Part shown: piece by piece, positions 10,652-49,786 of the stretch
How the letters are laid out: each line of letters begins with the position of its first letter
How positions within the stretch are numbered: position 1 is the stretch's first letter
The notes under the pieces: model-generated
What the model saw: the letters and a program-made list of their open reading frames with translations, nothing else
The model's database searches: none
Told to the model about the DNA's origin: nothing
Assembly: GCF_028728065.1 (NCBI RefSeq)
Contig: NZ_CP117811.1
Span: forward strand, 992,001-1,056,000
Reading direction: 5' to 3'
Source of the DNA: Lentisphaera profundi
Lineage (GTDB): Bacteria; Verrucomicrobiota; Lentisphaeria; Lentisphaerales; Lentisphaeraceae
Length of the DNA stretch: 64,000 bases
Made by a program: the position numbers and the translations under genes

Positions 10652-12091
10652 ATGAATAAGATGATCATTGCGATAGGGCTCTGTGTACTCAGTAGTTTAA
10701 GTGACTATGCCTTGGCAAATGAGGGTGAGAGGCCGAATATCATTATCATCCTTGCCGATGATCTAGGGTATGGTGATTGCGGTGCGTTTAATCCTCAGTC
10801 AAAAATAAAGACACCACATATCGATCAGTTGGCAGAAGAGGGCATGAGCTTTACGGATGCTCATTCAGCGTCCACAACATGTACGCCTTCGCGTTATGGT
10901 TTATTGACGGGCACGAATCCCTGCCGTACGGGAGTTTTAAATACCTTACTCAAAACGGGGCATCCCATTATTGATGCGGATGAGTATACCGTGGCGGATT
11001 TTTTAAAGTCTCAGAATTATCAGACTCATATGGTGGGTAAGTGGCATTTGGGCTTTGAAATGGATAAAACAAAAAATAAGAAGGCCTTTGATTTAAGTCA
11101 GGATCTTTTAGGTGGCCCCGTAGATTGTGGCTTCGATTATTTTTATGGAGTGCATTCATCGGTGAGTGCTTCACCGATGTTCTATATCAAAAACCGTCAA
11201 GCCATTGGCAGGCCAGAAGTCATTGTAGAAGCAGATAAAATTAACGGGAGCGGAAAAAAATCGAAATTTAAAATTCAGCTTGCCCAAGGTATGGCACTAG
11301 AAAATATAAGTCCCGACTTATGTGCGGATGCCGTCAGACTGATAAAAGAGTATGCAAAGTCAGATCAAGAGCAGCCCTTCTTTCTTTATTACGCCTCCAC
11401 GATTCCACATCAACCCTGGGTTCCGAGCGCTGAGTTCAAAGGCAAAAGCGGGCTTGGTGTCTATGCCGATTTTGTGATGCAGTTTGACGACGAAGTCGGG
11501 CAGATCAATCAGGCCTTGAAGGATACGGGGCTGGATAATAATACAATCCTTATTTTCACCAGTGATAATGGTCCCGGTCCGGGCGCGAGTCGTAACATGG
11601 AAGAGCAGGGGCATGGCAGCACTGGAATACTTCGAGGCATGAAGTCAGACGCCTGGGAAGGAGGTCACCGAGTGCCCTTTATCGCTAAATGGCCTCATCG
11701 TATAAAAGCAGGCACTCAAAATCAAGCTATTATCAACGCCACCGATCTATTTGCGACTTTCGCAGCTTTACTTAAGGTGAATTTAGCAAGACTGAGCCCT
11801 CATGCGGCTCCCGATAGCGTGAGCTTCCTAGAGACACTTTTGGATGCTGACAAAAAATTCAAGCGGCCCGCAATGATTAATGGACGCCATGCGATTCGCA
11901 AGGGTGACTGGAAGCTTGTTTCAATTGCAAAGCATAGTGATGCCGCTAAACTTAAACCCAGTGATTTTAAATTATTTAACCTAGCCGAAGATATAAGCGA
12001 AAAAAGTGAGCTTACGCAAGAGAATCCCGAGCGACTTAGTGAACTTTATAAAGAATTCATAGACTTTGCCAATGAGAGAAAACTCAAGTAG
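10652..12091 (+). CDS. Secreted sulfatase, family S1, Cys-type
   Basis: 479 residues with a signal peptide ending near ANEGE. Sulfatase landmarks: ILADDLGYGDCG (metal-binding Asp pair, about 35-45), C77-T-P-S-R81 (the formylglycine motif CxPxR), GKWHLG near 130, and TSDNGPGPG near 300. It removes sulfate esters from sugars and would need a maturase encoded elsewhere. No SD is obvious, but a TATAAT lies at 10616-10621, about 30 nt upstream. The gene is monocistronic and divergent from the DUF1080 operon. Its last ~36 codons plus downstream sequence are duplicated at 48535-48718. Substrate is not deducible. Confidence 0.93.
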   Translation: MNKMIIAIGLCVLSSLSDYALANEGERPNIIIILADDLGYGDCGAFNPQSKIKTPHIDQLAEEGMSFTDAHSASTTCTPSRYGLLTGTNPCRTGVLNTLLKTGHPIIDADEYTVADFLKSQNYQTHMVGKWHLGFEMDKTKNKKAFDLSQDLLGGPVDCGFDYFYGVHSSVSASPMFYIKNRQAIGRPEVIVEADKINGSGKKSKFKIQLAQGMALENISPDLCADAVRLIKEYAKSDQEQPFFLYYASTIPHQPWVPSAEFKGKSGLGVYADFVMQFDDEVGQINQALKDTGLDNNTILIFTSDNGPGPGASRNMEEQGHGSTGILRGMKSDAWEGGHRVPFIAKWPHRIKAGTQNQAIINATDLFATFAALLKVNLARLSPHAAPDSVSFLETLLDADKKFKRPAMINGRHAIRKGDWKLVSIAKHSDAAKLKPSDFKLFNLAEDISEKSELTQENPERLSELYKEFIDFANERKLK

Positions 12092-12168
12092 AGATTCATG
12101 AATGTACTACGGTATGGGAGGTAGGGAACTTAAGGGATTTTACTTGTTTTTTCACCCGCCCGCGGAGG
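11983..12168. repeat. Sulfatase tail segment duplicated at 48535-48718
   Basis: The last ~36 codons of the sulfatase, its stop and 77 bp downstream recur at 48535-48718 with only a handful of mismatches. The shared block ends in the CCCGCCCGCGGAGG start of the larger repeat unit. Confidence 0.9.
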
Positions 12169-12760
12169 CATTGAATTCAAACACTAATTTTCATCATCCG
12201 CATTGGAATGCGGAGCTCCCAGGTTTAAGGGACAAGTGGACCGGTTAGGGACATGGGGACAAGTAAAACGGGGACAGGTTACTATGGGGATAGCTTAAAT
12301 TTTGAAGGGGAAAACTCTGTAAAAACTAACTAAAAAAGTGTCCTGTCCCCAAAACTCACAGGTCTTTCCACACGGGTGAATAGTTTTTTTTTACCCGCCC
12401 GCGGAGGCTCTCCGTCCGCCGGAGGCATTGAATTCAAACACTAATTTTCATCATCCGCATTGGAATGCGGATCTTCCAGGTTTAAGGGACAAGTGGACAG
12501 GTTAGGGACATGGGGACAAGTAAAACGGGGATAGGTTAAATTTTGAAGGGGAAAACTCTGTAAAAACTAACTAAAAAAGTGTCCTGTCCCCAAAACTCAA
12601 AAAAAGTGTCCTGTCCCCAGAGCTCCACCAGAGCTCCAGAGCTGTCGGAGTTAGGAATTGGTTCTCATAGTACTAAAAATCATTTCTGCTTGATTGTTAG
12701 AAGCCTAAGTGCTTATCTGGCTAGCTAATAGGATAGTTTCTCAACTTGAATATTACTTAT
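12092..12760. repeat. Intergenic repeat block: 115-bp-type units and GGGGACAGG/CCTGTCCCC elements
   Basis: No gene is visible. There are two copies of the unit with CATTGAATTCAAACACTA (from 12169 and 12426) and the palindrome CCGCATTGGAATGCGG, each followed by a GGGACAAGTGGAC...GGGGACAAGTAAAACGGGG stretch, TTAAATTTTGAAGGGG and AAAAAGTGTCCTGTCCCC (near 12335, 12577 and 12603). GGGGACAGG and CCTGTCCCC are inverted, as in REP/RAYT-type elements. The same units form the array at 48.96-49.6 kb. Confidence 0.85.
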
Positions 12761-25225: not shown

Positions 25226-26098
25226 GGGGGGCTAATGGTAGGGAACTTAAGGGGTTTTAGGTGGGTTTTTGCGAAGCTAGTCCGCCCGCGGAGGCTCCTA
25301 ATGGTAGGGAACTTAAGTGTTTTTTAAGCTTGTGTACAAGATTTTAATTGGCCCGCGGGGGCTCCCCGCTCGCCGAAGGCATTTAAATATGGGGCTCCGC
25401 CCCAAACCCGCCTAAGAGTGCAAGCACCCTTAGGAATCCCGACGCTAGTCGCTTCGCGCCCGCGCTTAATTTTAACCTTAAATTTGCTTAAGTTCCCATC
25501 CATTAAGGGCTCCCCGCTCGCCGAAGGCATTAATAGATAGGGACTTTGTCCCTAACCCTACTCAAGGGCGCGTAGCGCCCTTAAGGATCCCAGCGCTTGT
25601 CGCTACGCTCCTACACTTAAATCTTAGCAGAAATGAGTACCGTACTATATTCAATTCACACTTAATCCATCCGCCTGGTCAAGGAGTGGCAGCTCCTTGC
25701 AGGGTTTGGGGCAGAGCCCCATATATAATTAAATAAAAAAAAGCTTAAGTTCCCATCCATTAAGGGCTCCCCGCTCGCCGAAGGCATTTACATATGGGGC
25801 TCTGCCCCACACCCCACTCAAGGTACTGCCGTACGGGCCAATAATTTTATCCGCCTGTGTGGCAACACCCCTTAAGAATCCCGACGCTAGTCGCTTCGCG
25901 CCTACACTTAAATCTTAGCAGAAATGAGTACCGTACTATATTCAATTCACACTTAATCCATCCGCCTGGTCAAGGAGTGGCAGCTCCTTGCAGGGTTTGG
26001 GGCAGAGCCCCATATATAATTAAATAAAAAAAAAGCTTAAGTTCCCTACCATTAAGGGCTCCCCGTCCGCCGGAGGTATTTATACTGGGGCAGAGCCT
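25226..26098. repeat. Dense repeat block with CTAATGG..GGGAACTTAAG ends
   Basis: No gene. CTAATGGTAGGGAACTTAAG occurs at 25232-25251 and 25298-25317; the inverted form CTTAAGTTCCCATCCATTAA occurs at 25487-25506 and 25744-25763, and a variant at 26036-26055. The 25298-25506 pair bounds a 209-bp element. A segment of about 130 bp starting at 25611 is repeated almost exactly from 25902. Small hairpins such as GGGGCTCTGCCCC and AAGGAGTGGCAGCTCCTT recur. Confidence 0.85.
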
Positions 26099-26329
26099 CT
26101 AATGCGTGGGAACTTAAGAGATATTTGAGCTCGAAGAGCTTAGCAATGTAGCCATGGACCTAAGTCCGTGGTGTTTGAATAAGAGCATTGTGCGTGCCGA
26201 AGCTACGCTGCAGAGCGTTTCCTTCATACCTTCGGCATGAAAATCATTTTTTTAACAATACCCACCGGATAAATCCGGTGGCTACCCAACTACATACCTT
26301 CGGCATGTGCTTAAGTTCCCACTCATTAG
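26099..26329 (+). mobile_element. 231-bp MITE-like element, copy A
   Basis: It is bounded by CTAATGCGTGGGAACTTAAG and its inverse CTTAAGTTCCCACTCATTAG, with no open frame of note. It is the same length as, and homologous along its whole length (reverse orientation) to, the copy at 48724-48954. No target duplication is seen here: the flanks CAGAGCCT and AGCGAGTA differ, so one side has recombined. Internal palindromes include CCACCGGATAAATCCGGTGG. Confidence 0.85.
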
Positions 26330-33730: not shown

Positions 33731-33780
33731 CCTGCTAGGATCCATTTAGCCCTAAGCATCAATCCGTCAGCAAGGGCCCT

Positions 33781-33820
33781 CATGGGTGGAACTTAAGAGA
33801 TATTTGAGCTCGAAGAACTT
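33781..33820 (+). mobile_element. Left-end fragment of the 231-bp element
   Basis: CATGGGTGGAACTTAAG and the following GAGATATTTGAGCTCGAAG match the first ~40 bp of the element at 26099, then switch to GntR-tail sequence at the shared word CTTAGC. Confidence 0.75.
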
Positions 33821-35231
33821 AGCGGACGATTAGTTCTGGCAATAATATAGAGTGAAAAAGTATTAGCTAATAATGCTGAAAGCATGAATTAATAAAGCCC
33901 AATGGCGTAAGCCTTGGGGAATATGATTGTCAATATATTATGAATGCTGTAAGCATGGATTAATGCTTTGATCCGTTCCTTCAGAACTCAGTTATTCAAG
34001 TATTTCTCACCCCTAGCTCTCACGAGCTAGGCTTGATTAAGCCATGGCTTCAGAATTCAAAAGTAAATCTAATTCATTGCCAAAGTAATAGGGCCGAAGG
34101 TCCGGCCGACCGAGAGCTGATAGAGAGCTTTCCGTGTCATTCCGTGATCTTCCGTACTTAAATAAATCTCTTGACTCCCAGATGGGCTTTAGGAAGTGCT
34201 GAATATGTCATTATATGACTTTTATAATATTCACAAGTAAATCAATTAAAGAGAATTCTAAAGCTTAGCGGACGATTAATCCGGCAATAATATAGAGTGA
34301 AAAAGTATTAGCTAATAATGCTGAAAGCATGAATTAATAAAGCCCAATGGCGTAAGCCTTGGGGAATATGATTGTCAATATATTATGAATGCTGTAGGCA
34401 TGGATTAGTGCTTTGATCCGTTCCTTCAGAACTCAGTTATTCAAGTATTTCTCACCCCTAGCTCTCACGAGCCAGGCTTGATTAAGCCATTCCTTCAGAA
34501 TTCAAAAGTATATCATTTTTTTAACAATACCCACCGGATAAATCCGGTGGGTACCCTACTACATAGCTTCGGCATGTGCTTAAGTTCCCACTCATTAGAG
34601 CGAGTGCATGGGCGATTTTTTCTGGATCGGGGCAAAAAATAGCTAGGGCCGAAGGTCCGACCGAGAGCTGATAGAAAGCTTTCCGTGCTTAAATAAATCT
34701 CTTGACTCCCAAGTTGTGCTTTAGGGAGTGCTGAATATGTCATTATATGACTTTTATAATATTCACAAATAAATCAATTAAAGAGAATCCTAAAGCTTAG
34801 CGGACGATTAATCCGGTAATAATATAGAGTGAAAAAGTATTAGCTAATAATGCTGAAAGCATGAATTAATAAAGCCCAATGGCGTAAGCCTTGGGGAATA
34901 TGATTGTCAAGATATTATGAATGCTGTAAGCATGGATTAGTGCTTTAATCCGTTCCTTCAGAACTCAGTTATTCAAGTATTTCTCACCCCTAGCTCTCAC
35001 GAGCTAGGCTTGATTAAGCCATGGCTTCAGAATTCAAAAGTAAATCTAATTCATTGCCAAAGTAATAGGGCCGTAGGTCCGACCGACCGAGAGCTGATAG
35101 AGAGCTTTCGGTGTCATTCCGTGCTTAAATAAATCTCTTGACTCCCAAGTTGTGCTTTAGGAAGTGCTGAATATGTCATTATATGACTTTTATAATATTT
35201 ACAAATAAATCAATTAAAGAGAATCCTAAAG
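33818..35231. repeat. Three tandem ~440-bp units derived from the GntR gene tail and downstream DNA
   Basis: Units start at 33818 (446 bp), 34264 (532 bp) and 34796 (436 bp). Each opens with CTTAGCGGACGATTA, the last codons of the regulator gene whose stop is at 35233-35235, then CAATAATATAGAGTG and conserved sequence up to AAAGAGAAT(T/C)CTAAAG. The middle unit is longer because MITE and GntR fragments replace part of it. Small hairpins recur in each unit. No gene is visible. Confidence 0.88.
34512..34598 (+). mobile_element. Right-half fragment of the 231-bp element
   Basis: ATCATTTTTTTAACAATACC through CTTAAGTTCCCACTCATTAG equals the right part of copy A at 26099-26329. It is followed, as in copy A, by the GntR fragment AGCGAGTGCATGGG. 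Confidence 0.85.
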
Positions 35232-48181: not shown

Positions 48182-48534
48182 AGGCCGCGAACTTTTCGGC
48201 TCAATCATTCAAAATCCCCTGGGATCGCCAAGCACCAGCTTGGCCTTTTCGTCTTAGCTCAATCATTCAAAATTCCCTTGGTCAAGGGTCTTGCCCATAC
48301 GGCAGTATCTTGCTGGGGGAGCTCGTAATGAGTGGGAACTTAAAAGATTACAAGATTAAATTCGTGCTTAATCAGACCTTTGGGATTGTCAAGATTAAGC
48401 GCTGGAGCGGAGCCCCAGATATTTTTATCGCCTGTGTGGCAGCACCCTCCGGTGGCCGAGGAGCCCTCGGGGCCCTACTAAAAAAGGTGGCCGCAAAAAG
48501 TGTCCCGCAAAAAGTGTCCTGTCCCCAAAACTCC
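48182..48534. repeat. Repeat-bearing spacer
   Basis: Direct repeats of GCTCAATCATTCAAAAT occur near 48200 and 48257. A left-end word TAATGAGTGGGAACTTAA is at 48326-48343. REP-like AAAAAGTGTCC and CCTGTCCCC are at 48497-48530. No convincing gene. Confidence 0.75.
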
Positions 48535-48723
48535 AGCCGAAGATATAAGCGAAAAAAGTGAGCTTACGCAAGAGAATCCCGAGCGACTTAGTGAACTTTA
48601 TAAAGAATTCATAGACCTTGCCAATGAGAGAAAGCTCAAGTAGGGATTCATGAATGTACTACGGTATGGGGGCTAGGAACTTAAGGGATTTTACTTGTTT
48701 TTTACCCGCCCGCGGAGGCTCTC
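48535..48723. repeat. Copied tail of the 10652 sulfatase gene, ending in the 115-bp unit
   Basis: Near-identical to 11983-12168 and includes the last ~36 sulfatase codons and stop. Its left edge abuts the REP-like word CCTGTCCCCAAAACTC. Bases 48716-48723 (AGGCTCTC) are the left target duplication of the MITE-like element. Confidence 0.9.
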
Positions 48724-48954
48724 CTAATGATTGGGAACTTAAGCACATGCCGAAGGTATGTAGTATGGTAGCCATTGGATTTATCCGGTGGGTATTGTTG
48801 AAAAAATCATCGTGCATGCCGAAGGTATGAAGGAAACGCTCTGCAGCGTACCTTCGGCATGCACGATGATTTTTTCAAACACCACGGACTTACGTCCATG
48901 GCTACATTCCTAAGCTCTTTGAGCTCAAATATCTCTTAAGTTCCCAATCATTAG
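48724..48954 (-). mobile_element. 231-bp MITE-like element, copy B, with 8-bp target duplication
   Basis: Perfect 20-bp terminal inverted repeats CTAATGATTGGGAACTTAAG. It is flanked by AGGCTCTC at 48716-48723 and 48955-48962. The empty site GCGGAGGCTCTCCGTCCGCC is preserved at 12411-12430 region in the repeat unit there. Inside, 48800-48827 and 48849-48876 are a perfect 28-bp inverted repeat with a 21-nt loop. There is no transposase, so it is non-autonomous. Confidence 0.9.
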
Positions 48955-49605
48955 AGGCTCTCCGTCCGCCAGAGACATTGAAGTTAAACACTAATTTTCA
49001 TCATCCGCATTGGAATGCGGATCTCCCAGGTTTTGCCACACGGGCGAATAGTTTTTTACCCGCCCGCGGAGGCTCTCCGCCCGCCGGAGGCATTGAATTC
49101 AAACACTAATTTTCATCATCCGCATTGGAATGCGGATCTCCCAGGTTTTGCTACACGGATGAATAGTTTTTTTACCCGCCCGCGGAGGCCCTCCGCCCGC
49201 CGGAGGCATTGAATTCAAACACTAATTTTCATCATCCGCATTGGAATGCGGATCTCCCAGGTGTTGCGCTCACTGGTGAATAGTTTTTTTTACCCGCCCG
49301 CGGAGGCTCTCCGCCCGCCGGAGGCATTGAATTCAAACACTAATTTTCATCATCCGCATTGGAATGCGGATCTCCCAGTTTTTGCCACACGGGTGAATAG
49401 TTTTTTTTACCCGCCCGCGGAGGCATTGAATTCAAACACTAACTTTCATTATCCGCATTGGAATGCGGAGCTCCCAGGTTTTGCCACACGGGTGAATAGT
49501 TTTTTTATCCGCCCGCCGGAGGCATTGAATTCAAACACTAACTTTCATTATCCGCATTGGAATGCGGAGCTCCCAGGTTTTGCCACACGGGAGAATAGTT
49601 TTTTT
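48955..49605. repeat. Array of six ~99-118-bp units
   Basis: The word CATTGAATTCAAACACTA (first copy CATTGAAGTTAAACACTA) starts at 48976, 49091, 49207, 49325, 49424 and 49523. Each unit contains the palindrome CCGCATTGGAATGCGG, CCAGGTTTTGCCACACGG and a T-run before CCCGCCCGCGGAGG. Units lacking the second GGAGG word are 99 bp long. There are no unique spacers, so it is not a CRISPR. Confidence 0.9.
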
Positions 49606-49786
49606 ACCCGTAGTTTGAGCAGCCAATCCCAAAGCTAGTAGCTGTGCGCCCGGGCAAGAGTGCACTCTTTTGTGGGCCGTTTTCAGCACGCGCACCCGGC
49701 TTCATTTCGTCAGCTCCTGACGCAATATTAGACAGACATAGAGTTATAATAATGCTTAGCGACAATAGTTTTTGTAATGTTTTCAT
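49604..49786 (-). pseudogene. Truncated secreted protein (signal peptide plus linker)
   Basis: 60 codons: signal peptide MKTLQKLLSLSIIITLCLSN and a short polar segment (KPGARAENGPQKSALLPG), then a stop at the edge of the repeat array. It lies 8 bp after the tandem esterase and its signal peptide resembles that of the esterase (LCLSNIASGAD versus LCLSALASAAD). It is probably the stump of a further operon gene cut off by the array. Confidence 0.5.

Follow-up and report, generated by a model that had tools for sequence, protein, structure and literature searches.

A 229-bp MITE with IS4-type ends in Lentisphaera profundi and its candidate driver in a related genome

Introduction

The window analyzed here, a 64,000-nucleotide stretch of the Lentisphaera profundi genome (NZ_CP117811.1, positions 992,001 to 1,056,000), contains a short element with inverted ends that is flanked by direct repeats and interrupts a repeat unit, raising the questions of whether it was moved by transposition and which transposase would recognize its ends. 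An earlier note on this window had described the element as MITE-like and left its driver unknown.

Here, we examine the boundaries, target sites, relatives, and possible driver of this element. Judged from its sequence, it is a real and well-supported non-autonomous transposon (MITE) with IS4-type ends. The MITE explains a sizeable set of the dispersed intergenic repeats in the genome and links a repeat that lacks a resident driver with an IS4-type element of a sister species. Cross-species mobilization in Lentisphaerae and the correction of a palindrome become testable with these data.

Boundaries of the element and its target duplication

The element was originally delimited at 48724-48954, and the identical 20-bp inverted ends, with AGGCTCTC on either side, are present as read. 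The element is real, but its dimensions of 20-bp ends, 231 bp, and an 8-bp duplication have to be revised to 19 bp, 229 bp, and 10 bp, respectively. An alignment of all copies shows C, T, G, or A at base 1 of the 20-bp ends, and this base is frequently not the same at the left and right ends of a single element. The outermost base thus varies among copies and belongs to the target, which gives the layout GAGGCTCTCC / TAATGATTGGGAACTTAAG ... CTTAAGTTCCCAATCATTA / GAGGCTCTCC (Table 1). Once base 1 is shifted into the flank, each perfect 8-bp duplication becomes a perfect 10-bp duplication; 8 bp seemed right, and 10 bp is right.

The same length emerges from 45 convergent end pairs, where a duplication of 10 bp with ends at TAATG gave z = 9.3, against 0.9 and 2.5 for the neighboring lengths of 9 and 11. 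In the shuffle control behind these values, right flanks were redistributed among elements, so that common base composition is accounted for. The 10-bp duplications comprise 7 perfect cases (one of which is a G run and uninformative by itself) and 7 at 9/10; a recognizable duplication is kept in only about one third of the end pairs. No open reading frame (ORF) of at least 120 aa overlaps the 229-bp element.

Table 1. Coordinates of the element and of related features in the window.
Feature	Positions	Strand	Remarks
MITE, corrected boundaries	48725..48953	+	229 bp
Left terminal inverted repeat	48725..48743	+	TAATGATTGGGAACTTAAG, 19 bp
Right terminal inverted repeat	48935..48953	-	19 bp, identical to left
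Target duplication, left copy	48715..48724	+	GAGGCTCTCC, 10 bp
Target duplication, right copy	48954..48963	+	GAGGCTCTCC, 10 bp
Central hairpin	48798..48879 (approximate)	.	perfect 30-bp arms, unique to this copy (n = 18 compared)
Tandem array adjoining the MITE	48954..49424	+	units of ~116 bp, the uninterrupted ones being paralogous empty sites; over 48954-49610, units of ~100-116 bp with palindromic GC-rich segments
Second uninterrupted copy of target unit	12381..12483	+
Second MITE copy	26100..26328	-	91% identity; no target duplication; right junction common to 34512-34640
Element of different interior class	25299..25505	+	207 bp, same ends
Repeat units with solo ends	25507..26055	.	passive duplication
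Truncated MITE end in repeat array	34512..34598	-	87 bp

Other copies of the ends in the window

Allowing up to 3 mismatches, 11 occurrences of the end motif were counted in the window, where chance would give 0.04. The motifs reported at 25232, 25298, 25487, 25744, 26036, and 34579 are all present with 0-2 mismatches; the one placed at 48326 exists and starts at 48325, and the one given as 33781 lies inside a 46-bp degenerate end fragment (33779-33823). The second copy, described at 26099-26329, has the opposite orientation and, with the old boundaries, the length of 231 bp, as claimed; its sequence is identical to the focal copy at 91% of positions, and no target duplication flanks it.

Several of these other end motifs are passive repeat duplications rather than transpositions. 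Passive amplification, in which the end motif would be part of larger repeats, tandem or dispersed, that recombination or replication slippage had copied, fits the solo ends at 25507-26055, the truncated copy at 34512-34598 within repeat arrays, the right junction that the 26099 copy has in common with another repeat, and the roughly two thirds of end pairs without a clear duplication. The pattern that the earlier note had set against transposition, namely ends that lack duplications and sit inside larger repeats, holds for many solo ends at 25.2-26.1 and 33.8-35.3 kb and does not hold for the focal element. As an account of the MITE, passive amplification is extremely improbable, given that it can yield neither duplications of a constant 10 bp at unrelated sites nor the single-copy targets of uninterrupted paralogues described below, and for the focal copy it is already contradicted.

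The Acido-Lenti-1 RNA family (RF01687) is matched four times in the repeat array at 33.8-35.3 kb (33872-34895), and the match at 34457-34502 lies ten bases from the truncated MITE end.

Empty paralogous sites and target preference

An empty version of the target unit had been reported near 12.4 kb, and it was found there, at 12401-12420. The units at 49066-49085, 49182-49201, and 49300-49319 are likewise uninterrupted and provide better empty sites directly beside the element: the uninterrupted units (49051-49424) of the tandem array, one unit of which the element interrupts, are paralogous empty sites for the element at 48725, and uninterrupted paralogues cross its junction with one copy of the target. 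The repeat at 11983-12226 was rejected as a clean empty site because it is deleted around the target. Uninterrupted paralogues with a single target were also identified elsewhere in the genome for three further insertions (L051, L052, and L069), indicating, together with the element at 48725, that insertions frequently occurred repeat-into-repeat; for one element of a sister-genus metagenome (L114 in G005), the paralogue comparison did not cover the junction.

Target preference was scored in the 16 best duplications (at least 8/10) from three genomes. The pattern RRRRNNYYYY reached 6.5/8 in the duplications compared with 4.0 in neighboring 10-mers, and GGGGNNCCCC reached 4.6/8 compared with 1.7; neither score was attained in 20,000 random draws. 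The insertions prefer GC-rich RRRRNNYYYY targets, often within other repeats, far above background.

The central hairpin of the focal copy

The focal copy has a predicted fold of -120 kcal/mol (z = -15). So strong a fold, and the location of both MITE copies in the window between predicted ORFs, would suit a regulatory or RNA-structure repeat under selection, such as a terminator or a stable hairpin RNA, that is mobile only incidentally. We consider this very unlikely, since palindromic structure is usual for MITEs, a comparison with Rfam gave no family for the element, and the copies vary freely; moreover, such a role would be compatible with movement by transposition and would not exclude it.

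Whereas the longest perfect arm among the 17 other copies is 12 bp, that of the focal copy is 30 bp. The focal copy carries 15 differences from the consensus, 9 of them in the arms, and with these nine the arms become perfectly complementary; the changes form patches matching one arm or the other. The terminal repeats of this copy are identical as well. A tentative reading, to which we give somewhat less than even weight, is that the perfect 30-bp hairpin arose by arm-to-arm correction, that is, mutual correction of both arms. Template switching is known to homogenize the arms of imperfect inverted repeats (PMC7202029, PMC8604942), and the perfected hairpin could have arisen either by such a switch or by the mismatch repair of a hairpin that had been extruded. 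If the arms were corrected in this manner, an extruded cruciform or a single-stranded hairpin would have formed from the element and been copied or mismatch-repaired, and the sequence would have captured this intermediate.

The repeat family in the genome and in related genomes

With up to 2 mismatches, the end motif was found 136 times in the 5.46-Mb genome and 5 times for the reversed control. A search with one 231-bp copy produced 43 matches in its own genome, corresponding to about 40 related copies, and none in five relatives. Other interiors, of about 209, 247, 306, 317, and 337 bp by the old boundaries, have the same ends or are mosaics. The 209-bp class has a 90% identical relative in G001, a second genome from the genus, and the sister-genus metagenome contains elements that have these ends, 10-bp duplications, and unrelated interiors. 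Among public genomes outside Lentisphaerales, the end motif yielded single matches only, at about the chance level, and viral contigs gave 5 single matches. Most MITE copies have diverged, with 4 to 43 differences from the consensus, and activity in this host is therefore probably not recent.

One copy in the same genome (L069; 2.36 kb, duplication CGGGGAGCTC) is a 337-bp-class MITE that is split beside its left end. The inserted DNA is a single-copy IS110-type element nested in the MITE (L069 2190-4547; G000:C2:430690-433047). Its gene was rejected as the driver because it occurs in a single copy that sits inside the MITE, adjoining the left end. Ends and duplications of this sort are not known from IS110 elements, so the nested element is a passenger.

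A candidate driver in the genus

The driver, given as unknown in the earlier note, now has an IS4-family candidate, which shares the MITE ends and comes from a different genome of the genus (G002). That genome contains two full elements of 1799 and 1798 bp, 99.94% identical and located at different sites (one a C run, the other a G run), along with a third that is interrupted by a contig end. Their ends are as in the MITE, with 10-bp duplications; only the ends are common to the MITE and this insertion sequence, and the interiors are not. Read through a frame break, the DDE transposase scores 132 bits against the NCBIfam IS4 model (cut-off 115) and contains the Y-x2-R-x3-E-x6-K signature (YREK), YRQRYLVEVAYRHLK. 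The frame is broken near the N-terminus in both full copies, and one copy has a second break. The absence of a frameshift is a hallmark of IS4 transposases (PMC2266710), which makes the break likelier to be damage or an assembly error than programmed frameshifting.

The shared ends and duplication length, together with the transposase, make this insertion sequence a strong candidate driver of the MITE, and an IS4-family transposase its most likely mover; the MITE ends are very probably recognized by a DDE transposase of that family. A counterpoint is that the candidate resides in another species, whereas the searches of the MITE's own genome revealed no transposase gene bounded by these ends. 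A protein-pattern scan of the genome_contigs set for the transposase gave no match, and a phylum-wide search of 289 genomes for the transposase returned one distant match.

The MITE might instead have been moved by a transposase from a different family, such as IS1 or ISPepr1, as the 8-bp duplication first read would suggest; the ends of IS1 also resemble TAATG...AACTTA. This alternative is quite unlikely: the duplication measures 10 bp, the genus contains an IS4-family element whose ends are exactly these, and IS1, tried as a driver for its similar ends, was rejected since no IS1 transposase (PF03400) was found in the genome. The same genome carries many other DDE_Tnp_1 elements, and none was observed to have the MITE ends. 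The two groups examined for clean boundaries end in different sequences (CACAGTCATCCC; GATGCACTCCGACA), other ends were also noted for a 519-aa group, and no convincing pair of end motifs was detected near the DDE_Tnp_1 singletons.

The CACAGTCATCCC ends belong to a 1.42-kb element present in 5 copies, and the GATGCACTCCGACA ends to an element of about 13 copies that encodes a 487-aa DDE transposase. Both transposons have been recently active (loci L126, L130, L134, L138, L142, and L156-L159).

That the MITE was moved by transposition, as first proposed, is borne out by the fixed-length duplication across the genome, the single-target paralogues, and the transposase-bearing insertion sequence of a sister species that shares its ends and duplication length. 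An IS4-family transposase would cut at the inverted ends TAATG...CTTAAG and insert the element at a staggered cut of 10 bp, repair of which would leave the 10-bp target duplication; with GC-rich RRRRNNYYYY targets being preferred, the element would often land in other dispersed repeats. The transposase may have been supplied in trans by the G002 insertion sequence or by a lost relative, and we infer by analogy that movement was probably cut-and-paste, a mode known in other IS4-family members.

Comparison with IS4 and other known elements

MIC231 and other non-autonomous relatives of IS231, an IS4-family element, are mobilized in trans in the Bacillus cereus group and, similarly to the MITE, consist of non-autonomous DNA between IS4-family ends. 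These cassettes may carry genes and have IS231 ends, whereas the window element is short and palindromic and belongs to another subgroup and phylum. Bacterial MITEs, such as those of Porphyromonas gingivalis (PMC4596501), are likewise short and non-coding, with inverted ends, target duplications, and many copies; in the present case, by contrast, the host genome yielded no cognate insertion sequence, and one set of ends is common to several unrelated interiors. All the features that define a MITE were observed: a short non-coding element with terminal inverted repeats, a fixed duplication, dispersed copies, and an autonomous counterpart bearing these ends, the last in another species and frame-disrupted.

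In Escherichia coli K-12, IS4 (insG) has the ends TAATGCCGATCAGTTAAG and a 12-bp duplication, CAGAACCAAGAT; these ends, TAATG...TTAAG, are of the same type as those of the MITE, in which TTAAG is offset by one base. The IS4 subgroup is characterized by -AATR ends and duplications of 10-13 bp (PMC2266710, Table 1), a range that includes the 10 bp of the G002 element. Compared with the pattern -AATR--------WTW----, AATG and TT match, and position 14 is C rather than W. The resemblance to the subgroup extends to the marked target preference that accompanies a duplication of about 10 bp and, in the putative driver, to a DDE transposase with the YREK signature. The G002 transposase departs from the single frame of the subgroup, and we therefore name the driver IS4-like and treat its subgroup membership as provisional. 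Further differences are that the window element has no gene, that the putative driver is longer (1799 bp compared with the 1400-1650 listed) and encodes an additional ORF, that it shares only 21% identity with InsG, and that its targets are GC-rich. The additional ORF, of the DUF6788 family (L111 2315-2623, L112 2269-2577), is located directly upstream of the transposase and overlaps its start, an arrangement unusual for the IS4 family.
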